A stretch of 64,000 nt of DNA from Halogeometricum sp. S3BR5-2 (GTDB lineage Archaea > Halobacteriota > Halobacteria > Halobacteriales > Haloferacaceae), in NCBI RefSeq assembly GCF_031624635.1, contig NZ_JAMQOQ010000001.1, forward strand, positions 992,001 through 1,056,000, given 5' to 3'. Under the pieces are notes generated by a model. That model searched no databases. It was given only the letters and a program-made list of their open reading frames with translations, and was not told the origin of the DNA. The translations under genes and the position numbers were made by a program. Shown here in pieces: positions 235-11,654 of this stretch. Each line of letters opens with the position of its first letter. Within the stretch, counting starts at the first letter, position 1.

Positions 235-666
235 CTACCGGTCGTTCCGCTCGGCGATGTAGCCGTGGATGGCCGCCAACTGTTCGAGCGTCATCGCGTT
301 CCGGCCCTCCAGCGCCTGCTGTATCTCCTGCCCGGAGAGACCGAGGTCGACGTTCGAGGCGATGGTGTCCACGTCGAGGACGCCCGTCGTCATCCCGAGG
401 AGGAGGTGGTCGCGGAGTTCGAGCACGATGGCCTCTTGGTCGGGGTACTCCTCCGAGAGCGCCAACAGCGCGGCCGCGTCCTCGACGCGCATGTCGGGCG
501 CGGGGCCGTCGGCGACGGCGGCGACCTGTTCCTCGTCGACGTCGGCGTCCGCCGCCGCCGCCTCGACGCCGACCGAGTCGACGACGGTCCGAATCTGCGC
601 CTCGTAGGCTTCCCGCAACTCAGCCGGCGAGAGCGACGCCGGGTCGTCGGCCGCGTCGTAGAGCAT
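235..666 (-). CDS. Conserved haloarchaeal protein, 143 aa (possibly DUF5791)
   Basis: An acidic soluble protein, predicted largely helical, with no signal peptide or membrane segment. It starts MLYDAADDPASLSPAEL and ends with a compact helical part (LGLSGQEIQQALEGRNAMTLEQLAAIHGYI) that looks like a small helix bundle. The ATG at 666 is preferred because the frame upstream is low-complexity arginine-rich antisense of the next gene. Its stop abuts the start of the epimerase-like gene, suggesting a two-gene unit. Function not recognised; the DUF5791 label is a guess from memory. Confidence 0.75.
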   Translation of the reverse strand: MLYDAADDPASLSPAELREAYEAQIRTVVDSVGVEAAAADADVDEEQVAAVADGPAPDMRVEDAAALLALSEEYPDQEAIVLELRDHLLLGMTTGVLDVDTIASNVDLGLSGQEIQQALEGRNAMTLEQLAAIHGYIAERNDR

Positions 667-716
667 ACCCCCACTCGCCGCGCCGCGGGCAAAACGGTTT
701 CCGTACTCCTCCGCGC

Positions 717-3700
717 TCACTCCCGCGGACACCGCCCCGTCGGCGTGTCGCACCGCGGTCCCGGCGCCGCGCCGGACCACGCCGGGGACGCCTCGAACGC
801 GTCGCCGTCGACGTCGCCGACGCCGTTGCCGGCGGGCGGGACGACGGCGACGACGACAGTCCGCACCTCGAAGCCGATTCGCCCGTTCGAGCCGACGACC
901 TCCCGACTTCCGTCGCCGTCGACGTCTAACCGGACGACCGACCCGTCGCGGACGTACGTCGTCGGCACGGCGCCGCCGCCCGCTGAGACGGCGAAACGGG
1001 CGTACGCGCCGCGTGCCTCGACGATCCAGAGGTTCGTCGTCGCGACCCACGGGTTCAGCGTCGGCGAGAGCGGAAGCCCCGCCGGAACAGACCCGAGCGT
1101 GCCGTTCAGCGCGCGGTCGGTCAGGCGGTCGGCGCCGCGAGAGGCCGCCTCGGTCGTCAGTTCCGTCGCGAGCGTCCGCGTCCGGGAGGCGGTGTCGTTC
1201 GCGGCCGCTTCCGGGACGCGGACTCCCGGCGCGGTCGTCGCCCCGCGCAACTCGACTCTGAGCGCCGTGGCGAGTCGGTCCCGCGCCGCGCCGTCCTCGA
1301 CGTCGGCCTCGGCGGCGACGGCGGCCGCGAGCGACCCGTTCGACGCGGCGACGGCGCGCCCCCCCGGCCCGTCCCAGCGTGCGAGCGCGACATCCACCGC
1401 CTCGGCGCTCTCTCGACGCGTCAGCGTCGTCTCGCGTCGAACCGCGATTGCCGCTCGGAGTCGAACGGCGGTCAGTGACCGGTCGACCTCCGCCGCGAGT
1501 CGGTCCCGCCGGCCGCGGAGCGTCGCGTCCTCGCGGACGGCGAGCGTCCGGTCGGCGGCGACGAGCGCCCGCCCCGCCGTGCGGAGCGAGACCCCGCCGC
1601 CGCCGAACACCGCGCCGACGACCGAGTCCGCGAGGTCGCCGTACGGCAGGGTGAACAGGTTGGTGTTCCGCGCCGCCAGCGGGGTGTACGTCGCGCCGTC
1701 CGCGACGCCGTCGACCCCCGCGCCGCCGACGCCGGACAGCGAGAGGTACGCCGGGTCGCCGTCGGGGACGAACGCGTCGGGGTCGGCGGGGTTGACGGGG
1801 TCCACAGCATCCGAGTCGTTCTCGGCCGCGCGACTGGCGAGCGCCCTCCTCACCGCGTCCGCGTCCACGTCGCGGGAGGCGAGCGCATCCCGCAGTCGGT
1901 CGTTCCGCCCGCCCGCCGCCGCGGCGCGTTCGTCCAGCGCCGCGAGCACCCGGTCGAGGTACGCCGCGCGCGCCGCGACGCGGGTTCGGTCGGCGACGCC
2001 GTCGTACTCGGCCGGCGCGTCCACCAGTTCCGCGCGTCGGGCGCGGACCGCCGCCGCGAGTTCGGCCGCCGCGTTGGCGTGACCGGTCGCCGCGTCCCGC
2101 GCGGCCACCTCGACGGAGACGTTCCGAACCCGTTCGCGGAGTCCCGCGACGTCCGCGTACACCCACCCGCGGAGGGCTTCGGGACGCTCGCCGAGGTGAC
2201 CCGTCGACGCTCCCGGAACGCCGACGTCGCCGTCGCCGTCTCTCCCGGCGTCGAGGGCCGCCCGACGGGCGACTGCGTCGGCGCCGCCCCGGTCGGCCAG
2301 CGCCTCCCTCGTCGCTCGCGGGACGCCGGCGAGGTTCGGCCCCGAGAGGGCGCCGCCCCGGTCGAACAAGGGGGTCACCGGCCGGTCCGGGCCGGGAAGC
2401 GGGCGGAGCGACGCGACGACGGCGACGCGGACGCGGTAGCTGTCGTGCCAGCGCGCCGTCGTCGCCCGTCTGGTGCCGTTCCGCGCCCACGTCCGCGAGA
2501 CGGTGCGGCGCACCACGACCCGTCGAGCGGTCGTCTCGAAGGCGCGTTCGCCGACGCCGACGGCCGGCGGGGAGGCGGGCGCCTCGGCCGCGCCGACCGA
2601 CACCTCGGCGCTCAGGTCCTCGTCGACGAGCGTCCACTCGCTCGATTCGCCCGACGCGGACGGCGGGTCGGGAGCCGGCTTCCGCCCCTCGTCCGCGTCG
2701 GTCACCGCCGAGACGACGGTCTGGTCCGTAGTGTAGCCGTCGCGGCGGAGCGAATCGAGCGTCGGCGCGCCGTTCCCGCCACCGTCCCCGAGCAACGCCA
2801 GAAAGGCGTCGTCTGCGGTGCCGCCGACGCTCGCGGAGAACGTCTGCGTCGACAGCGGCGGGGGTGACGGATTCGGACGCGGTGCGGCGTCGACGAGTCG
2901 GTCGGTTGCGCGTCCGCCGACGACGGACGGGAGCGCGTCGGAGAGCCCGGTTCGGAGCGTCGCCGCGCGGACTCCCCGGCCGGCGTCGGGGTCGGCTCGG
3001 CCGAAGGAGGCACGCTGCGCCGCGAGGACGCCCGCGTTCGTCGAGAGTTCGACGTGACGGTTGGCGACGACGTTGTCGACGGGCGCGCCGGCGTGCTGGG
3101 CGAGGCCGCGCGCCTCCGCGACGGCGAGCAGTCCGGCCGTCGTCCGGCGCTTCAGTCCCGGCGCGTACACCGGCGAGCGGTTCAGTCGCCGCTGGAAGTC
3201 GGCGGTCCGGTCGTGGAGCGCGAGCACCGGAACCACGACGGTCACGCGGCGCGAGACGGTTCGCTCGGCGACGACGCGCCCGTTTCGCGCGGCGACCAGC
3301 GAGACGTTCCGGACCGTCGCCGTCAGCGACCGGCCGCCGTCGACCGGCGACACGGAGACGTCGTGCAACGCCGGTCGGACTCCCGTCTCCGAAACCGCCG
3401 GGAGCGACGCCCGCGCCACCGCGTCCCCGCGGCGGTGTTCCACCGTCGACAGCGCCTCGCGGGCCGAGAGCGCGATTCTGAGTCGCAGGTAGTCGCGAAA
3501 GGTCCGATTCCCGTCGAGGGCGCGACCGACCGTCGTGTTCGCCGGCGTCGTCACCGGGTCGGCGGCGGCCGCCTCGGCCGCGTCGCGGACCGCCACCCGA
3601 AGCGCGGCGGTCGTCTCGGCGTCGGCGCGGTCCATCGCGACGTCGACCGAGTCGTCCACGACGCCGGCGCCCGGCGAGGCGAGCGACGCCGCGAACGTCG

Positions 3701-3773
3701 AACTCCCGACGAGGAGGAGTACGCCGACGAGGGCGAACGGGACTCGCGCTCGCTCGTCGTCCGCGAGGCGCAT
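717..3773 (-). CDS. Very large pseudopilin-like envelope protein of the Tad-like operon (probably DUF7286)
   Basis: 1018 residues. The N terminus (MRLADDERARVPFALVG, then a hydrophobic stretch to about residue 32) looks like a TadE/TadG or class III pilin-type anchor: charged residues, then a single membrane helix, then a long extracytoplasmic part. The rest is Ala/Arg/Asp-rich with many N-x-S/T sequons and no enzyme motif that I recognise. It is the last gene of the operon and its ATG overlaps the upstream TGA by one base (TGATG at 3775-3771), pointing to coupled translation. Likely a structural or adhesive surface subunit of the secretion machine; the role is inferred from position and topology only. 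Confidence 0.8.
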   Translation of the reverse strand: MRLADDERARVPFALVGVLLLVGSSTFAASLASPGAGVVDDSVDVAMDRADAETTAALRVAVRDAAEAAAADPVTTPANTTVGRALDGNRTFRDYLRLRIALSAREALSTVEHRRGDAVARASLPAVSETGVRPALHDVSVSPVDGGRSLTATVRNVSLVAARNGRVVAERTVSRRVTVVVPVLALHDRTADFQRRLNRSPVYAPGLKRRTTAGLLAVAEARGLAQHAGAPVDNVVANRHVELSTNAGVLAAQRASFGRADPDAGRGVRAATLRTGLSDALPSVVGGRATDRLVDAAPRPNPSPPPLSTQTFSASVGGTADDAFLALLGDGGGNGAPTLDSLRRDGYTTDQTVVSAVTDADEGRKPAPDPPSASGESSEWTLVDEDLSAEVSVGAAEAPASPPAVGVGERAFETTARRVVVRRTVSRTWARNGTRRATTARWHDSYRVRVAVVASLRPLPGPDRPVTPLFDRGGALSGPNLAGVPRATREALADRGGADAVARRAALDAGRDGDGDVGVPGASTGHLGERPEALRGWVYADVAGLRERVRNVSVEVAARDAATGHANAAAELAAAVRARRAELVDAPAEYDGVADRTRVAARAAYLDRVLAALDERAAAAGGRNDRLRDALASRDVDADAVRRALASRAAENDSDAVDPVNPADPDAFVPDGDPAYLSLSGVGGAGVDGVADGATYTPLAARNTNLFTLPYGDLADSVVGAVFGGGGVSLRTAGRALVAADRTLAVREDATLRGRRDRLAAEVDRSLTAVRLRAAIAVRRETTLTRRESAEAVDVALARWDGPGGRAVAASNGSLAAAVAAEADVEDGAARDRLATALRVELRGATTAPGVRVPEAAANDTASRTRTLATELTTEAASRGADRLTDRALNGTLGSVPAGLPLSPTLNPWVATTNLWIVEARGAYARFAVSAGGGAVPTTYVRDGSVVRLDVDGDGSREVVGSNGRIGFEVRTVVVAVVPPAGNGVGDVDGDAFEASPAWSGAAPGPRCDTPTGRCPRE

Positions 3774-4723
3774 CAGCGACCGCCCTCCGCTCGCGAGTCG
3801 GCGGGTTCTCTCGCGCCTCCGCGCCCCCCTCCGTCGGCGTCCCACGCGCGGACGACGATTCGCACCTCGGAGGCCGAGACGGCGGCCGCGGCCGCCTCGG
3901 GGGAGTCGTAGCGCGCCCGCAGGTCTGACTCGACGCGGGGAGCGAGCGCGGACGCGAGGCGGCGGTTCGCCGTCCCCGTGTCCGCGTCGTCGACGTCGTC
4001 GGTCACCGGAGCGTCCAGTTCCGCGGCGAGGCGGGCGTAGCGGTACCGCGCGAACGTCGAGACGGGAGCGTCGTCGCGGAGTGCGAGTCGCATCCGGGTC
4101 GCGGGAACCAGCACCTCGACGGTGCGGTCGGCGACGGCGCCCGACAGCGACGCGAAATCGCGCGTCTCGTCGGGGGAGAGCGGCTTCGCGCCGGTGGGGA
4201 CGGTGAGCGTCGCCGCGTCGACCGCCGCGCCGTCGGGCGGGGCGCCGCCGACGGCGACCCGGCCCTCGACCGGCGCGCCGGGATACGGCCGCCAGAGGGC
4301 GTCGACTCGGAGGCCGACGGTCGAAATCCTCTCCTGGACGGCGCCGTCGACGGCCCTCCGCAGGTCGTCCCGCGCGTGCGTTACGGGAGCACCGTCGAAG
4401 CCGGCCGTCCCGACGGCGGCCCGAGCGAGGAGGCCGCCGAGCGACCCGCGCGTCGTCCGTCGGAACTCCGGGCCGGCCGTGCGCTCGAAGCGGACGCTCC
4501 CGTGTTCGTCCGCGTCCGCTCGCACGTTCGCCCGGCGCGCCCCCGGCGCGAGCGAGTAGTTCACCGTGGCGGTGCTCGTCGCGAGGACGGCGGCGACGGC
4601 GTCCGGTCGGTCGTCCTCGACGACCGCCGAGTCCGCGCGAGCCCCGGCGTCGGCGGCGGTGACGCCGAGGACGGCGGCGCCGAGGAGGAGGAAGAACACC
4701 GCGGCGTCGACGGCGGCGTTCAC
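3773..4723 (-). CDS. Pseudopilin-like anchored protein (probably DUF7285)
   Basis: 316 residues with one N-terminal membrane helix (about residues 5-22, VNAAVDAAVFFLLLGAAVLG) and an extracytoplasmic remainder. GTG at 4723 is chosen because it overlaps the upstream TGA (GTGA, 4723-4720); GTG codons a little upstream are possible but would overlap more. No catalytic motif is visible. Third of four consecutive anchored proteins after the secretion ATPase and platform, so probably a minor pilin or a pilus-assembly factor. The DUF number is from memory of a consecutively numbered haloarchaeal series. Confidence 0.8.
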   Translation of the reverse strand: MNAAVDAAVFFLLLGAAVLGVTAADAGARADSAVVEDDRPDAVAAVLATSTATVNYSLAPGARRANVRADADEHGSVRFERTAGPEFRRTTRGSLGGLLARAAVGTAGFDGAPVTHARDDLRRAVDGAVQERISTVGLRVDALWRPYPGAPVEGRVAVGGAPPDGAAVDAATLTVPTGAKPLSPDETRDFASLSGAVADRTVEVLVPATRMRLALRDDAPVSTFARYRYARLAAELDAPVTDDVDDADTGTANRRLASALAPRVESDLRARYDSPEAAAAAVSASEVRIVVRAWDADGGGRGGAREPADSRAEGGR

Positions 4724-5220
4724 GACCACACCGCCACCGAGAGCCGTCCGGGTTCGACGCAACCGGGGCCGAGTCGAACGCTGACGAGGCGACCGGCGCG
4801 GTCGATGCGGTCCGCGTGGCCCGTCGGCTTCGTGCGGTCCGCGCGACCCGTCGCGGCCGACGCCGCCGGGGGAACGGCGGGGCCGGCGTGCCATACCCGG
4901 TCGTCGGCGACGAGCGTGACGTTGACTCGGCGCCCGGCGGGGCGGTAGTCAGGAGTCCCGGAGAGACGGTCCGGCGCGACCACGCCGCCGTCGCTCGCCG
5001 CGTCCGCGACGCGGTCCAGCGTCGGGTCAGCCGCATCCCGTTCGTCGACGACCGGCACCGCGCCGGCGAGGACGGTCGCGTAGAGGCTCACACCGGCGCA
5101 GACGGCGAAGAGGGCGGCGAGAGCGGCGACGGACGACGCCTGCGCGCGGGCCCCCCGACCGCTCGCGTCGCCTCCCAGCGCTCGCTCCGCCGACGGCTCA
5201 CGCGTCGACGAGGACGACAT
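4720..5220 (-). CDS. Pseudopilin-like anchored protein (probably DUF7284)
   Basis: 166 residues. A polar N terminus ending in GRGARAQASS is followed by one hydrophobic helix (about residues 31-52) and a 110-residue outer domain with two cysteine-poor beta-rich stretches. The short charged leader before a helix resembles type IV pilin or TadE/TadG-like leaders, but the standard haloarchaeal pilin processing motif is not evident. It overlaps the upstream gene by 23 bases and the downstream gene by 4, typical of a tightly coupled operon. Confidence 0.8.
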   Translation of the reverse strand: MSSSSTREPSAERALGGDASGRGARAQASSVAALAALFAVCAGVSLYATVLAGAVPVVDERDAADPTLDRVADAASDGGVVAPDRLSGTPDYRPAGRRVNVTLVADDRVWHAGPAVPPAASAATGRADRTKPTGHADRIDRAGRLVSVRLGPGCVEPGRLSVAVWS

Positions 5221-5677
5221 CGACCCCCTCCCAGGTCGTCGTGCGGACGAGAAGCGTGCGGTCCACCGCGCGCCACGGCGCGTCGCCGGCGCGGGCGCGG
5301 GCGTCGACGACCGCCTGTCGGAACGCCTCCGGGTCGTCGTAGACGTCGGCGGGGTGCGCGCCGTGCACCACGTCGCGGAGCCGCGAGTCGCCCGGCGGTA
5401 CGGGCGTGACCGGGCCGAACGCGAGCGTGGCGTGCGCGGTCCCCGCGTCGTTCCGGAGGGCGAGTCGTCGCGGGCGGAGTCTGACCGCCGTCGCGTCCAA
5501 TGGGTGTTCGGCCGTCGAGGCGTACTCGGCGGCCGCGGCGCGGTCCACCGTCGCGGCCGCCGACTCGGCGTTCGGCGGCGGCGCCGTGGGCAGTCCCGAG
5601 GCGGCGCCGACGAGGGCGACGCCCGCGAGCGAGAGTCCGAGCCACGCGTACCACGCGTCGAGCGGTAGGTCGAGCAT
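5198..5677 (-). CDS. Pseudopilin-like anchored protein (probably DUF7283)
   Basis: 159 residues. One N-terminal membrane helix (about residues 11-31, from WYAWLGLSLAGVALVG) is followed by an outer domain; the N terminus is short, as in signal-anchor proteins. ATG at 5677 is the first start downstream of the TadC-like gene, leaving a 59-base gap that contains an AT-rich tract (tatataaacg on the plus strand near 5699-5708) that could hold an internal promoter. First of four such genes in the operon. Function unknown beyond likely membership of the secretion machine. Confidence 0.8.
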   Translation of the reverse strand: MLDLPLDAWYAWLGLSLAGVALVGAASGLPTAPPPNAESAAATVDRAAAAEYASTAEHPLDATAVRLRPRRLALRNDAGTAHATLAFGPVTPVPPGDSRLRDVVHGAHPADVYDDPEAFRQAVVDARARAGDAPWRAVDRTLLVRTTTWEGVDVVLVDA

Positions 5678-5736
5678 GGACCGTCTGGCCGCGGGTTCGT
5701 ATATAAACGCTCGGCGCGGTGGGTCTCGCCCACGAA

Positions 5737-7467
5737 TCAGAACAGGAGCGACGCGCCGCGGAACGCGGCGAGATAGGCCGCCGTCGCCGAGAGGAGGGCG
5801 ATGCCGACGCGGTAGCCGACGAGGCTCCGGTCGAGACCGCGGTCCAGTCCGGTCGAGAGGACCGTCAGCGCGGCGGCGAGAAAGAGGACGTAGCCGCCGA
5901 CCGCCGCGCCGAGCAGTTCGGGTCCGAGCGTTGCCGCCCCTGCCTCCGCCCCGCGGTCCGCGAGGCCGGCGTCCACCGACCCCATCCGGGCCGACATGGC
6001 GACGGTGGCGCCGCCGACGAGCGGTGCGAACAGGGCCGCGGTGTTCGACAGCGTCCCCGTCACCGCGGCGAGTTCGCGCCGCGCTTCCGACTCGACCCGG
6101 CGGAGGTCCCGCAGGTGGTCGGCGCCGGCGACGAGGGCGTCCCCGGCGGGTCGTCCCTCGTCCGCCGCGACGGACAGGAGGGCCGCGGCCCCGCGCGCCC
6201 GCGGACTCGGGACGTCGGTGAGGGCGCCGTGCCTCCCCAAGAAGGCCTCGCGGACGCCGACGCGGAGGCGGCGCCGGACGCCGGCCGCCTCGGCGAACAC
6301 CTCGCCCGCGGGCGTCGAGAACGCCTCCGCCGCGGCCTCGACGGCGGCCTCCACGGAATCGCCGGCGTCGACGCGGCGGCCGACGAGCGAGAGCGCGTCG
6401 TCGAGACCGGCCTCGACCGCTCGAGTGCGCGCTCGGACCTCCGCCATGGGACGGTAGCGCACGAGCAGTCCGGTTCCGAGACCCGCGCCGGCGGCCGTCA
6501 GCCAGTCGGCCCACGGGGCGACGGCGCCCCCGACGGCCCAGCCCCCGGCGCCGCAGGCGACGGCGGCGCCGACCGCCCGCGCGGGCGAGGAGGGGACGGC
6601 CGGGTGGCTCGAATCGACGCGCGGCGGCGCCAGCGCCACGGGTCGACGGAGCAGTATCCACGCGCTCGCGGCGACGAGCGACAGCGGAAGCAGCAGGTCG
6701 TAGACGGCGACGAACAGCGCCGTCGGCACCGAGACGCCGCCGGCGCGGGCCGCCGGGAGGACGCCGACCAGCGCCAACGGCAGGAGGACGCCGAAGGCGT
6801 AGACGCCCGTCGCCGGGCCGCGGATGTCGCCCGCGAACGAGGCGAGTTCGTCTCGGGTGCCGTCCAAGACGGCGTCGAGCGCGCGGTCCAGCGTCCGCTC
6901 CCGGTCCGCGGGCCGGGCGTCCGCGGCCGTCCGGAGCAGGGAGACGGACCGGGCGAGCGCCGGGAACGTCTCCCCCCACTCGGCGGCGAACGACTCGAAG
7001 CCCGCGTCGGGCGTGCCGCGGGCGCGTCGGACGTGTTCTCCGAGGCTGTCGGCCAGCGGTCCGTCGGCGGCGTGAGCGGCGAACGAACCGGCCCGCTCGG
7101 GGACGGGAGCCAGCCGCATCCGGAGCGTCGCGCGGCCGACCAGCGCCGTCGTCTCACCCAGCGCGCGCGTCCGTCTGAGCCGAGCGGCGGCGGCCGGCAG
7201 CCGGTGGACCGCGTGCGTCCCCGCGAGGCCGACGGCGAGGCCGGCGCAGAGGCGGGCGACGAGCGGCGCGTCGGCGAGCGCCAGCGTCGCCAGGAGAAAC
7301 GCCGCCAGCGAGAGCGGGAGGCAGAGCCCGTACCCCGCGCGGACGACCGTCTCGGCGTCCGCGTCGCTCCCGAGGTACGCGAGCGCCTCTCGAAGGTCGT
7401 CGCTCGGTTCGACCGGCCACGGGTACAGTCGGGCCAGCGCGTCCGCGATTCGCGGGAGGTCGGTCAT
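5737..7467 (-). CDS. TadC/PilC-like type II/IV secretion platform protein (T2SSF domains)
   Basis: 576 residues, a polytopic membrane protein. Hydrophobic segments cluster near residues 46-90, 220-280, 295-340, 470-495, 515-545 and 553-575, separated by soluble helical regions near 100-215 and 345-465. This is the double-T2SSF layout of archaeal pilus/archaellum platform proteins, in which one chain carries two platform domains. It would sit in the cytoplasmic membrane, contact the ATPase and drive subunit extrusion. Its ATG overlaps the TGA of the ATPase gene (7467-7464), so the two are translationally coupled. Confidence 0.88.
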   Translation of the reverse strand: MTDLPRIADALARLYPWPVEPSDDLREALAYLGSDADAETVVRAGYGLCLPLSLAAFLLATLALADAPLVARLCAGLAVGLAGTHAVHRLPAAAARLRRTRALGETTALVGRATLRMRLAPVPERAGSFAAHAADGPLADSLGEHVRRARGTPDAGFESFAAEWGETFPALARSVSLLRTAADARPADRERTLDRALDAVLDGTRDELASFAGDIRGPATGVYAFGVLLPLALVGVLPAARAGGVSVPTALFVAVYDLLLPLSLVAASAWILLRRPVALAPPRVDSSHPAVPSSPARAVGAAVACGAGGWAVGGAVAPWADWLTAAGAGLGTGLLVRYRPMAEVRARTRAVEAGLDDALSLVGRRVDAGDSVEAAVEAAAEAFSTPAGEVFAEAAGVRRRLRVGVREAFLGRHGALTDVPSPRARGAAALLSVAADEGRPAGDALVAGADHLRDLRRVESEARRELAAVTGTLSNTAALFAPLVGGATVAMSARMGSVDAGLADRGAEAGAATLGPELLGAAVGGYVLFLAAALTVLSTGLDRGLDRSLVGYRVGIALLSATAAYLAAFRGASLLF

Positions 7468-9500
7468 CGGGTCGCCTCGGAGTCGCGCTCGTCGCTCGGC
7501 AGGTCCTCGGGCCGCGTCCGGTCGGTCGCGGCGAGACGCGCGAGTCGCTCCTCGCGCCGCCGGAGGACGGCCAGCACGTCGGCGTAGGACTCGTCGTGGC
7601 GGGCGAGCGACGCCACGAGGGCGCTGTCGCCGCGGGCGACGACGCCGGTTCCGGCGGTGCCCCTATCGTCGTCTCCGTCGCCCGCGCTCCGGTCGTACAG
7701 CGTCTCGAACCCGAGCGCGCCTCCGCCGCGAGCGCCGCCCTCCCCGTCCCGGCGGACCTCCGCGACGGCGTCGACCCGCCGCTCCGGGCCGTCGCGGGCG
7801 CAGACGACGACGAGGTCCGTCGCCGCGAACGACGACTCGGGGACCGAGAGGTCGGAGACGACTCGCTCGCGGACCGCGGCGGGCGAATCGCCGTGAATGG
7901 TTCCGAAGACGGCGTGCCCGTGCGCGCCGACGCGCATCGCCTCGTACAGCGCGGCGGCCTCCTCCCCCCGAACCTCGCCGACGACGAGGGCGCCGTCGCC
8001 GAGTCGGAGCGCGGTCCGGACGGCGTCCGTCGGGGAGAACGCCGCGTCGTCCCCGAGTTCGGTCCGGAGCGCCTGCACGTCGCGGCCGCCCTCCCGGAGC
8101 GCGTCGACCGGGAGCTCGGGGGTGTCCTCGACGGCGACGAGGCGCGTCGACGCCGGCAGTTCCCAGAGGAGCGCCGAGAGCAGCGTCGTCTTGCCCGCGC
8201 CGCGCGTCCCGGCGACGAGTCCGGTCGCGCCGCGTTCGGTCGCCAGGGAGAGCAGCGCCGCCGTCTCGGCGGACAGCGTTCCGGCGGCGACGAGGCCGGG
8301 CAGCGTCCACGCGCGGTCGCCGTGCGCGCGGAAGGCGAAGCCGACGCCGTCGCTGGCGGGCGCGGTGACGCCCGCGACGCGGACGCGGCCGTTCGGCCCG
8401 CGGACGGTGGCGTCGAGGGCGGGCGACGCGCGGGAGAACCCGCGTCCGCTGGCGCGTCTGAACCGCGAGGCGAGGGCCGCCGCGCCGTCGGCCGTGAGGC
8501 GGACGTTCGTCGGGAGGCGCTCGCCGTCGAGGGTGACGCGCACGGGGTTCGACTCGACGGGCGCGGAGGCGACGACGTCGGTCACGCGCGGGTCGGCGAA
8601 CAGGTCGTCGAGGACGCCGTTGCCCCGCGTGTGGCGGTCCAGCACGTCCGAGAGCGTCTCCACCGGGTCGCCGTCGCCCGCGACGTGTCGGACGGCCCGG
8701 CCGGGGGCGCGTTCGCCCCCGCCGACGACCCCGCGGGCGAGGCAGTCGCGCGCCGCCGCGAGCGTCGCCGTCGCCGCCGCGCCGAGACCGTGCGAGACGG
8801 GCGTGAGGTGGTACAGCCGGTCGGTATCGGTTCCCCGCCCGTCGGTCCGGTAGAGGCGGACGGTCGCGCCGGTGTCGAGTTCCCGGCGGTCGAGCAGCGT
8901 CGCCCCCGGCGGCGGACGGCGGACGACGCGAGAGCGAGCGACGGACGGGCCGACGGAGCAGCGGAGCAGGTCGGCGTAGTCGTCTTCTCCCTCTGTTCTG
9001 TCCTCTCCATCTCCCCGTCTCCGGTCGACGCGTTCGGCGCCCGCGGCGAGGCCCGTCTCGGCGGCGATTCGCGCCACCGGACCCGCCCGGCCGGTCGCCC
9101 GGTGGGCGGCCCCGACCGGGTCGCGCAGGGCGCGGTCGGCCAGCGACTCGTCGTGGAACCGCGCGCGTTCGACGAACCGGCCGGCCGCGAGGAGAAGTCC
9201 CGCGGCGCCGTCGTCGTAGGCGCGTTGGAGTCCGCCGGCGCGGACGCGGATCGCGTCGGCGTCCCGGTCTGCGAGCGCTGCGACGGCGGCGGCGCGGCAC
9301 GCCGGGGCGCGCGCGAGGTCCCCCTCGCCGGGGCAGTCGTCGGCGTCGACGACGAGTTCGGTCCGGTCCGTACCTCGGCCGACGGGCGTCTCGAAGGAGT
9401 GGCGACACCGGCAGGCGTCGGCGTCCCCGTTCCCGGCGTCGGGTCCGCCGGAGACGACCGCGCTCGCGGCGGCGGCGAGAGCGGCGAAGTCGAGTGACAT
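7464..9500 (-). CDS. Type II/IV secretion ATPase (TadA/PilB/VirB11-like)
   Basis: 678 residues. The ATPase core is plain: Walker A GTRGAGKT at residues 431-438, an Asp box (AVEDTPEL, about 456-463), Walker B GALVVGEVRGEE at 503-514, and a His box GAHGHAVFGTIHGDSP at 525-540. It hydrolyses ATP in a hexameric ring under the membrane to power subunit assembly or export. The N-terminal domain carries C30, C32, H34, C56 and C68, a possible metal site. A low-complexity Asp/Gly segment sits near residues 160-175. ATG at 9500 is used; the gene overlaps the platform gene by four bases. Confidence 0.93.
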   Translation of the reverse strand: MSLDFAALAAAASAVVSGGPDAGNGDADACRCRHSFETPVGRGTDRTELVVDADDCPGEGDLARAPACRAAAVAALADRDADAIRVRAGGLQRAYDDGAAGLLLAAGRFVERARFHDESLADRALRDPVGAAHRATGRAGPVARIAAETGLAAGAERVDRRRGDGEDRTEGEDDYADLLRCSVGPSVARSRVVRRPPPGATLLDRRELDTGATVRLYRTDGRGTDTDRLYHLTPVSHGLGAAATATLAAARDCLARGVVGGGERAPGRAVRHVAGDGDPVETLSDVLDRHTRGNGVLDDLFADPRVTDVVASAPVESNPVRVTLDGERLPTNVRLTADGAAALASRFRRASGRGFSRASPALDATVRGPNGRVRVAGVTAPASDGVGFAFRAHGDRAWTLPGLVAAGTLSAETAALLSLATERGATGLVAGTRGAGKTTLLSALLWELPASTRLVAVEDTPELPVDALREGGRDVQALRTELGDDAAFSPTDAVRTALRLGDGALVVGEVRGEEAAALYEAMRVGAHGHAVFGTIHGDSPAAVRERVVSDLSVPESSFAATDLVVVCARDGPERRVDAVAEVRRDGEGGARGGGALGFETLYDRSAGDGDDDRGTAGTGVVARGDSALVASLARHDESYADVLAVLRRREERLARLAATDRTRPEDLPSDERDSEATR

Positions 9501-9532
9501 GGGTCCGCTGGCCGCGTCCCGGTATAAGAAGC

Positions 9533-10000
9533 TCAGGAGGGGCCCCGTCCGACGACGAGCGCCGGTCCGTCAGCCGTCGTCCGGAGCGACAGCGAGACCG
9601 TCCGCTCCCCGCGCCCGCGGAAGACGACCGGACCGCCCGGTGTCCGCACCGGTACCGGGACAGAGAGCAGTCGCCGCGTCTCGCCGGCGCTCTCGACCGC
9701 GTAGGTCACGACGCTCCGGTTGCCCGGCCCGCCGGGCGACCCGCCGACGGCGACGTAGTCGACGGCCGCGGCGGTCCACGTCGGTCGGGGGAGCGAGAGC
9801 GCGACCGTTCGCGCCGGCGCGACGGCGGGGTCGCTCGGCGCGTCGCTGCCGACGGCGAGCGCCGACCCGGCCGCCGAGAGCCGGGCTATCGAAGAATCGA
9901 GCGCCGTCGCGGTCCGGTCGGTTCGCGCGCCGTCGACCGCCGGCAGCGACGCCCCGAGCACCGCCGTCGCCAGCGCCGCCGCGAGGACGACCCGGAGCAC
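9533..10000 (-). CDS. Small secreted/anchored protein of the Tad-like operon (probably DUF7311)
   Basis: 155 residues. The N terminus (LRVVLAAALATAVLGASLPAV) is a hydrophobic signal or anchor segment covering residues 2-22; the rest is beta-rich with many V/T/S residues. GTG at 10000 starts 1 base after the TGA of the upstream coiled-coil gene. No known enzyme motif. Its place directly before the secretion ATPase suggests a minor pilin or periplasmic-face partner of the machine. Confidence 0.75.
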   Translation of the reverse strand: MLRVVLAAALATAVLGASLPAVDGARTDRTATALDSSIARLSAAGSALAVGSDAPSDPAVAPARTVALSLPRPTWTAAAVDYVAVGGSPGGPGNRSVVTYAVESAGETRRLLSVPVPVRTPGGPVVFRGRGERTVSLSLRTTADGPALVVGRGPS

Positions 10001-10001
10001 G

Positions 10002-10493
10002 TCACAACGCCCCGCGGAGGCGGGCGGCGAGGGAGTCCGAGTCCGCGTTCTCGTCCCCCGTCTCCGCCGCTGCTTCGGCCGCGTCGACCGCCGAGAAGGA
10101 ATCGTCGACGCCGTCGTCCCCGTCCGGCAGACGTTCCGCGACGAGGCCGTCCGACTCCCCTTCGACCGCTCGCTCGTCCGTCAACCGTTCGACCGCCGCG
10201 AGGGCGAGGTCCGCGCGTCGCTCGACGGAGTCGTTCACCGCCTCGACGCCGCCGAGCAGTCCGCGGACGGCGTCGAGTTCGGCGGTCAGTTCCTCCACTC
10301 GTCGTTCGAGTCGGCGGAGGGTCTCGTCCGTGCCGTCGTCCGCGGCGTCCCCGTTGGGGGTCTCGGGAGCGGTCGGAGGCGACTTCTCGCGCGCGGCGCC
10401 CCTCGAACCGGCGCGCTCCCCGTCGGTCAGCGCGCGTTCGACGGCGTCGAGACGGGCGGCGAGCGTGGCTATGTCGGTCCTGTCGTTCGGCAT
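10002..10493 (-). CDS. Coiled-coil protein, first gene of the Tad-like operon (probably DUF7310)
   Basis: 163 residues, soluble, acidic. Two heptad-rich stretches (about residues 8-27 and 57-110, containing LRRLERRVEELTAELDAVRG) predict a coiled coil; the tail is a disordered Asp/Glu/Ala region ending SLAARLRGAL. ATG at 10493. It heads the leftward operon and faces the CetZ gene across a 75-base divergent promoter. Possible roles are scaffolding or control of the ATPase; nothing in the sequence settles this. Confidence 0.78.
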   Translation of the reverse strand: MPNDRTDIATLAARLDAVERALTDGERAGSRGAAREKSPPTAPETPNGDAADDGTDETLRRLERRVEELTAELDAVRGLLGGVEAVNDSVERRADLALAAVERLTDERAVEGESDGLVAERLPDGDDGVDDSFSAVDAAEAAAETGDENADSDSLAARLRGAL

Positions 10494-10515: not shown

Positions 10516-10524
10516 CATATAAAG
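10516..10524 (+). promoter_or_regulatory. TATA box of the CetZ gene
   Basis: catataaag lies about 50 bases before the ATG at 10569, so transcription would start near 10545 and leave a leader of roughly 24 bases. The same 75-base gap must also hold the promoter of the divergent coiled-coil gene. Confidence 0.5.
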
Positions 10525-10568: not shown

Positions 10569-11654
10569 ATGAAGACCGTCCTGATAGGGGTCGGGCAGGC
10601 CGGGGGGAAACTCACCCGCGCGCTGGTCGACTTCGACGAGCGAATGGAGTTCGGCGCGGTGCTCGGCGCCGTCGGCGTGAACTCCGCGAAGGCAGACCTC
10701 CGAGAGCTGCCCTTCGAGACCGTCCTGATCGGACAGGACCGCGTGAAGGGCCACGGCGTCGGCGGCGACAACGAACTCGGCGCGGCCGTGATGGACGCCG
10801 ACAGGCGGGAGGTGCTGTCCGCCCTCGACGGCAGCGTCACCGCCGAGGCGGACGCCGTCTTCGTCGTCGCCGGCCTCGGCGGCGGGACCGGAAGCGGCGG
10901 CGCGCCGGTCCTCGTGCGGGAACTCAAGCGGATATACGACGTCCCCGTCTACGCGCTCGGCGTCCTCCCCGGGCGGGACGAGGGGGCGATGTACCAGGTG
11001 AACGCGGGCCGCTCTCTGAAGACCGTTGCCCGCGAGGCCGACTCGCTGTTGCTCGTCGACAACGACGCCTTTCGAAGCTCGGGCGAGAGCCTCGAACAGG
11101 GGTTCGACGCCATCAACGACGCCATCGCGCGGCGCGTGGGCCTGCTGTTCGCCTCCGGCGAGGCCGTCGAGGGGGTGGCCGAGAGCGTCGTCGACTCCTC
11201 CGAAGTGATAAACACGCTCCGCTCGGGCGGCATCGCGGCGCTCGGGTACGCCGCCGCCGAATCCGCGGAGACGGCCGAGGGCAACATCAACACCGTGATG
11301 AGCACCACGCGGCGCGCCCTCCTCACGGGGACGAGTCTCCCCGAGGCGTCGAAGTCGGACTCGGCGCTCCTCGTCATCGCCGGCGAACCCGACAAAATCC
11401 CCCGCAAGGGCGTCGAACGTGCCCGCCGGTGGGTCGAAGAGGAGACGGGGAGCCTCCAGGTCCGCGGCGGCGACTTCCCGCTGGACTCGGGTCGCATCGC
11501 CTCGCTCGTCCTCCTCGGCGGCGTCGAGCGCTCCGACCGCCTCGAAGCGTTCATGCAACGGGCGCGCGACGCCGCGACGGAGGCCGACGAGGCCGAGGCC
11601 CGCGAGGACCCCGCGGACGCCTGGAGCAACGACGAACTCGACGACCTCATCTGA
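10569..11654 (+). CDS. CetZ-family tubulin-like protein
   Basis: 361 residues. Starts MKTVLIGVGQAGGK (nucleotide loop 1) and carries the tubulin signature GGGTGSG at residues 104-110, preceded by VFVVAGLG. The N-terminal GTPase domain is followed by a C-terminal domain, giving the usual size of tubulin/FtsZ superfamily members. The wording of the loops is nearer CetZ than FtsZ, and a true FtsZ1 is present at 38.6 kb. CetZ proteins control cell shape and motility structures in haloarchaea. The start at 10569 is preferred to the in-frame ATG at 10512 because the latter falls in the TATA region. Which CetZ paralogue this is cannot be told here. Confidence 0.88.
   Translation: MKTVLIGVGQAGGKLTRALVDFDERMEFGAVLGAVGVNSAKADLRELPFETVLIGQDRVKGHGVGGDNELGAAVMDADRREVLSALDGSVTAEADAVFVVAGLGGGTGSGGAPVLVRELKRIYDVPVYALGVLPGRDEGAMYQVNAGRSLKTVAREADSLLLVDNDAFRSSGESLEQGFDAINDAIARRVGLLFASGEAVEGVAESVVDSSEVINTLRSGGIAALGYAAAESAETAEGNINTVMSTTRRALLTGTSLPEASKSDSALLVIAGEPDKIPRKGVERARRWVEEETGSLQVRGGDFPLDSGRIASLVLLGGVERSDRLEAFMQRARDAATEADEAEAREDPADAWSNDELDDLI

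Follow-up and report, generated by a model that had tools for sequence, protein, structure and literature searches.

Eight minus-strand genes run leftward from position 10493 to position 717 of the window, the whole 64,000-nucleotide stretch of Halogeometricum sp. S3BR5-2 DNA analysed here. With a probability of about 0.72, we read this unit as the form that a haloarchaeal type IV pilus-type machine takes in Halogeometricum, in which the anchored proteins would be minor or tip pilins. A preliminary description had outlined a leftward eight-gene unit with tight overlaps and an anchored protein of 1018 residues, and this unit is present as drawn. Its further proposal, that the genes form one pilus-type machine with the anchored proteins as likely subunits, is strengthened by conserved gene order, co-occurrence in genomes and predicted prepilin-type N-termini. 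On this reading, six Pfam families of unknown function belong to a single machine that roughly three quarters of the sampled haloarchaea possess. What appears to be new here is a leaderless pilin-like protein, DUF7284, which in the family of the window (Haloferacaceae) is predicted to have kept its register.

All eight genes match Pfam families, in the order DUF7310, DUF7311, T2SSE, T2SSF (weakly), DUF7283, DUF7285, DUF7284 and DUF7286. Overlaps of 1 to 23 nucleotides occur at four of the seven junctions, namely 4 nucleotides between ATPase and platform, 23 between DUF7283 and DUF7285, 4 (GTGA) between DUF7285 and DUF7284, and 1 between DUF7284 and DUF7286. The genes and sites of the unit are:

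10002..10493, minus strand: DUF7310, coiled-coil cytoplasmic protein, 163 residues (Pfam PF23991, E 1.1e-20)
9533..10000, minus strand: DUF7311, 155 residues, with an N-terminal hydrophobic helix (Pfam PF23993, E 1.5e-40)
7464..9500, minus strand: VirB11/PilB-type secretion ATPase, 678 residues (T2SSE, E 1.7e-19)
9297..9413, minus strand: codon span of Cys30, Cys32, Cys56 and Cys68 of the ATPase, a putative metal site (conserved Cys)
5737..7467, minus strand: TadC/PilC-type membrane platform, 576 residues (T2SSF, E 0.0014, second half; gene position)
5198..5677, minus strand: DUF7283, single N-terminal anchor, 159 residues (Pfam PF23954, E 4.5e-55)
4720..5220, minus strand: DUF7285, pilin-like, 166 residues (PF23956, E 6.2e-34)
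5143..5148, minus strand: R25-A26 codons of DUF7285, positions -2 and -1 of the predicted prepilin site
3773..4723, minus strand: DUF7284, pilin-like, predicted leaderless, start GTG at 4723 (or 4729) (PF23955, E 6.5e-82)
717..3773, minus strand: DUF7286, pilin-like, with a large ectodomain, 1018 residues (PF23957, E 0, 1118.6 bits)
3747..3752, minus strand: R8-A9 codons of DUF7286, positions -2 and -1 of the predicted prepilin site

We compared two sets of loci, 20 taken from whole genomes that span the class and 80 named ones. The full eight-gene order was found in 17 of the former and 71 of the latter, usually back-to-back with cetZ2, and several incomplete loci among the remainder are interrupted by contig ends. 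Because all eight genes match Pfam families and their order recurs so widely among the named loci, the unit is far beyond chance. The nearest named locus is that of H. pallidum, with which the TadC tree groups the window with full support. Among the 242 genomes sampled from the class, 187 have DUF7286; of these, 180 also have DUF7284 and seven lack it, and no genome has DUF7284 alone.

Archaeal prepilins need Gly, Ala or Ser at position -1, preceded by a charged residue at -2 and followed immediately by the hydrophobic helix (PMC4371748), and the published sites of the H. volcanii PilA pilins are RA^VS. By this pattern, the anchored proteins DUF7285 and DUF7286, together with DUF7284 outside Haloferacaceae, carry a predicted class III prepilin site. 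Among 114 loci, DUF7286 has Arg at -2 in 109, and at -1 it has Gly (57), Ala (56) or Val (1), followed by RVPFALxGVLLL; methanogen-type sites read RA^YIPFA, HG^YVPFT and RA^RVPFV. For DUF7285, about 100 of 109 loci have an R[GA] pair at constant spacing ahead of the helix, giving the site R[GA]^Q. DUF7284 outside Haloferacaceae shows [RKH][GA]^ with five residues between the predicted cut and an invariant Asp at +6, typically as RA^ISTVLD or RG^VSTVVD. The preliminary description had found the usual haloarchaeal pilin motif missing from the anchored proteins, which is contradicted by R8-A9^R10VPFA in DUF7286 and R25-A26^Q27 in DUF7285 of the window itself, as well as by DUF7284 in other families. 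For DUF7311, no Arg/Lys-Gly/Ala leader site was seen across loci, and its helix begins 3-4 residues past the start, at a start-helix distance that is constant across loci. A close comparison is with the PilA1-6 adhesion pili of H. volcanii (PilB3/PilC3). DUF7284 sites of the form RA^VS or RG^VS read like the PilA site, whereas the PilB3 locus itself encodes no pilins, and PilA proteins are small in contrast to the large, unrelated ectodomains found here.

According to the mechanism that we propose, PibD, an A24 peptidase encoded elsewhere in the genome (one Peptidase_A24 gene is present), would trim the leaders of DUF7285 and DUF7286. DUF7284 of Haloferacaceae would be born trimmed, its start codon setting the mature N-terminus with the invariant Asp kept at +6. 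The exposed helices would then pack as in type IV filaments, and the ATPase and the platform would lift the subunits out and assemble them. With less certainty, DUF7286, whose ectodomain is large, may be a tip (adhesin-like) pilin, and DUF7283, DUF7284 and DUF7285 may act as minor or initiating pilins. The bulk pilin may be supplied in trans by stand-alone PilA-family genes; the genome has seven Pilin_N matches, none of them in the operon.

The same genes might instead build a pseudopilus or an envelope exporter that forms no filament, in which the anchored proteins make up a short rod or a fixed envelope complex and DUF7286 is displayed on the surface or exported. The operon holds no PilA-family pilin gene, the very large DUF7286 is always present, and the ectodomains are unlike known pilins, all of which would suit such a device. 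However, in other haloarchaeal type IV pilus loci, too, the major pilin gene is missing and pilins are used in trans, as PMC4858521 describes, and the same hallmarks fit minor pilins. We thus regard a machine without a filament as rather unlikely, and several observations nevertheless weigh against the pilus-type reading that we prefer. The major pilin is a postulated one. DUF7283 has no [KR][GA] leader site across loci, its start-helix distance being fixed, and the +1 Arg of DUF7286 is unusual for a pilin. The four anchored families have no detectable mutual homology (hhalign probabilities 0.2 to 22% at most), and no pilin or other solved fold gave a convincing match to the DUF7284 and DUF7286 models, with no Foldseek E < 0.1. 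The anchored set is unlinked from the ATPase in L046 (genome G128), L107, L114 and methanogens, and in genome G049 no orthologous ATPase was found (best 33% identity). Finally, any filament, cleavage or phenotype of this machine is a prediction.

The AlphaFold2 model of DUF7284 (predicted local distance difference test score, pLDDT, 90.5) has a helix at residues 2-28, a flexible linker and an alpha/beta ectodomain, and in that of DUF7286 (pLDDT 81.8) a helix at residues 13-31 comes before a long mixed ectodomain. Of the pilin fold sought in these models, the helix-first layout was recovered and fits a pilin-type role for both proteins; the predicted ectodomains had no convincing match and stay unexplained. 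The best fold match of the DUF7284 model was a ribosomal protein (Z 5.4, root-mean-square deviation 11.5, 138 aligned residues), and that of the DUF7286 model was SecB (Z 5.8, root-mean-square deviation 3.8, 104 aligned). Minor and tip pilins can carry unrelated modules, and hence the lack of an ectodomain match neither supports nor excludes a pilin-type role. A profile match of DUF7284 to uL16 (PDB, E 1.7e-4) was taken as chance, because fold searches do not return uL16; the best VIA matches of the model are uS3-type chains at Z about 5, in the range of common arrangements. The SecB-like match of DUF7286, at residues 350-514, was too weak to use, and no internal repeat was found in DUF7286.

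The register of DUF7284 was counted in 111 loci. A leader is present in 57 of them, with Asp at +6. In 42 others the start codon coincides with -1 and is followed by Thr without exception (42/42), and in 11, the window included, it coincides with +1 and is followed by Asn without exception (11/11); a single locus has another form, with DDG before +1. The N-terminus in the window reads M1-N2-A3-A4-V5-D6, followed by the helix, and the Asp is invariant in 53 aligned sequences, methanogens included. As a general rule, methionine aminopeptidase removes Met before Thr and keeps it before Asn, so that the mature protein would have Asp at +6 in all three classes. A 4-nucleotide ATGA/GTGA overlap with the DUF7285 stop recurs in 42/42 Thr-type and 10/11 Asn-type loci, which corroborates the leaderless starts. 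The same overlap is found in 44 of the 57 leader-type genes, whose leaders are often three to five residues long (MRA, MTRA). On the TadC tree, the leader of DUF7284 changes state once and the Thr form turns into the Asn form once, nested within the first change; only loci of Halogeometricum, Halobellus and Haloquadratum have the Asn form. What counts as evidence is thus two events rather than 53, both of which fall at +6.

From these counts we tentatively propose that DUF7284 of Haloferacaceae is a leaderless type IV pilin, in which translation alone would yield the N-terminus that the prepilin peptidase produces in other archaea and so bypass an enzyme regarded as necessary for every subunit of such machines, with Asp at +6 under selection; we place this slightly below an even chance. 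If true, leader removal would be dispensable for some type IV pilin-type subunits, and it is the mature N-terminus and the acidic residue that would matter. Alternatively, the fixed Asp may reflect the short space between a coupled ATGA/GTGA start and the helix rather than a selected mature N-terminus. This is a doubtful explanation that nonetheless has some force, as only two evolutionary events stand behind the 53 leaderless loci and the 4-nucleotide overlap alone forces A as the first base of the second codon. Yet both events landed exactly at +6 under the methionine-removal rule, with Thr in every case of one class and Asn in every case of the other, and leader-type genes with the same overlap have 2-4 extra residues before +1. 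The predicted cleavage sites are open to checking in a standard laboratory strain, and the loss of a leader at kept spacing, seen in one branch of haloarchaea, makes a clean experimental test possible.

Prepilin sites could also be illusory. The Arg-Gly/Ala pair might be no more than the positive-inside charge of ordinary signal-anchor proteins, given how frequent Arg, Ala and Gly are in high-GC (guanine plus cytosine) genomes; such a pair is also missing from DUF7283 and DUF7311. We consider this very unlikely, because Gly or Ala occupies -1 in 113/114 DUF7286 and 57/57 leader-type DUF7284 proteins at a fixed distance, and because the pair also occurs in low-GC methanogens (K-A^, H-G^, R-A^).

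As to its class, two papers, PMC4858521 (Makarova, Koonin, Albers 2016) and PMC9856176 (Brown and Duggin 2023), already list the machine as a predicted archaeal type IV pilus, and the remark in the preliminary description that its function or filament is not described has to be withdrawn to that extent. The ATPase matches A. fulgidus GspE2 (2oap) at E 1.8e-23 and has Walker A (GTRGAGKTT at 431), Walker B (GEVRGEEA at 508) and His-box (TIHGDS at 534) motifs. At its N-terminus, C30, C32, C56 and C68 are Cys in 97-98% of 99 orthologues, and this CxC...C...C pattern (residues 30-68) is likely a metal site. The platform matches T2SSF at E 0.0014, which falls short of the gathering score, and this weak match is confined to its second half; of 12 relatives, 3 match. 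Its length and layout nevertheless make a double T2SSF platform, as first described, plausible. The DUF7310 coiled coil, which is the first gene of the unit in the 71 complete loci, is likely the counterpart of arCOG07564 of the literature, judging from published descriptions.

In the part of PMC4858521 available, subclade 4F ATPases are described with an extra Cys-rich N-terminal domain, and 4F loci in Halobacteria with a unique coiled-coil protein, a large S-layer-like protein and a nearby FtsZ-family gene. The unit shares with 4F a VirB11-family Cys-rich ATPase, a probable TadC-like platform, a coiled coil, a large surface-type protein and an FtsZ-family neighbour; it differs in the loss of the DUF7284 leader and the Asp +6 register, of which that part of the source makes no mention. 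By these features the machine fits subclade 4F, a label that rests on features because the published ATPase tree could not be rebuilt, and that conflicts with the assignment of H. volcanii PilB2 to subclade 4C in PMC6491452. PMC9856176 reports a cetZ2-adjacent pilB2/C2 regulon with predicted pilins in Haloferacales and Halobacteriales. By synteny the unit fits this regulon, which it resembles in a divergent cetZ2 (CetZ2 by best structure match), in pilB/C and predicted pilins, and in a nucleotide pyrophosphatase-type gene nearby, with the difference that PMC9856176 gives arCOGs and not subunit N-termini. In the literature searched, no functional study of the pilB2/C2-cetZ2 regulon was found, nor any papers on these DUF families or on presumed H. 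volcanii locus tags. A source available in part reports 3 of 5 H. volcanii pilBC operons to be without detectable transcription, and the operons are not named there.

The name Tad given in the preliminary description does not suit the locus. Bacterial Tad/Flp systems have related ATPase and platform families, but their two single-domain platform genes, TadB and TadC (PMC6668835), their TadZ and their Flp pilin were not seen here, and no TadZ (MinD-like) or Flp pilin gene was found by Pfam among the eight operon genes. A TadA-family model is indeed the best NCBIfam match of the ATPase, but since this equivalog (TIGR03819) scores 126.2 bits against a cut-off of 373.15 and the unit has a single 576-residue platform, a true Tad/Flp system is extremely improbable. 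An archaellum FlaI/ArlI ATPase was rejected as well (NF058587, 83.8 bits against a cut-off of 550).

The preliminary description had named absence of the anchored genes beside the ATPase in relatives as a refutation; in most relatives they do stand there, and a few informative exceptions have the two halves apart. Methanogens, of the Methanosarcina type and others, encode relatives of DUF7286 too; most of these have 1,000 to 1,400 residues, and their C-terminal part is the best-shared region. In the non-haloarchaeal loci L061 and L067, the DUF7285-DUF7284-DUF7286 trio lies side by side without the ATPase, and each of the three such non-haloarchaeal genomes tested encodes a same-type ATPase (38-46% identity) elsewhere. 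Genomes with unlinked halves or without the ATPase suggest that the ATPase/platform half and the anchored half are separable. In G049, loci L053, L073 and L074 contain CetZ2 with DUF7285, DUF7284 and DUF7286, and no DUF7283, platform or ATPase alongside; this genome seems to have kept the pilin-like set without its motor.

Divergent operon sets, most of them complete, also exist away from cetZ in L064, L065, L066, L070, L075 and L076 (Natrialba-like and other genomes); L064, L065, L070 and L075 are full sets in Natrialba-like genomes. All six retain the predicted prepilin-type leader of DUF7284. Just upstream of the trio in L061, a separate cluster of small RGQ-type pilin-like genes is found (L061:383-4046, minus strand). 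In Methanosarcina-type loci, the DUF7286-like gene is followed by one for a small secreted protein that has a hydrophobic stretch at its C-terminal end (L060:6424-7032, L062:10292-10900), and no counterpart of it was seen in haloarchaea.

The neighbours of the unit in the window are:

10569..11654, plus strand: CetZ2 tubulin-like protein, divergent neighbour (start at Met20 of the listed open reading frame)
10517..10524, minus strand: TATA-like box TTTATATGA, ~31 nucleotides upstream of the DUF7310 ATG
235..720, minus strand: DUF5791, co-directional downstream neighbour, possible ninth gene (PF19104, E 1.5e-48)

The divergent CetZ scores 564.5 bits against PDB 4B45 (CetZ2) and 327.3 bits against 4B46 (CetZ1). 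Because the 4B45 match begins at residue 20, the true CetZ2 start should lie near 10569, which leaves a divergent gap of 75 nucleotides. A promoter comparison of 27 loci gave a median CetZ-DUF7310 gap of 85 nucleotides, and strict TATA-like matches occurred only at -30/-31 (12 loci) or -35 (1). CetZ is a neighbour in 56 of the 80 named loci, and on the basis of this adjacency CetZ2 may be a positional partner of the pilus-type machine. The question of why a tubulin-like CetZ2 gene sits beside such a machine is thereby sharpened.

On the downstream side, the GTG of DUF5791 at 720 overlaps the DUF7286 stop by 4 nucleotides in the window. DUF5791 was rejected as a translationally coupled ninth gene, since this overlap is not conserved and the gaps vary between loci. 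It lies downstream of DUF7286 in most loci, even in those without the ATPase.

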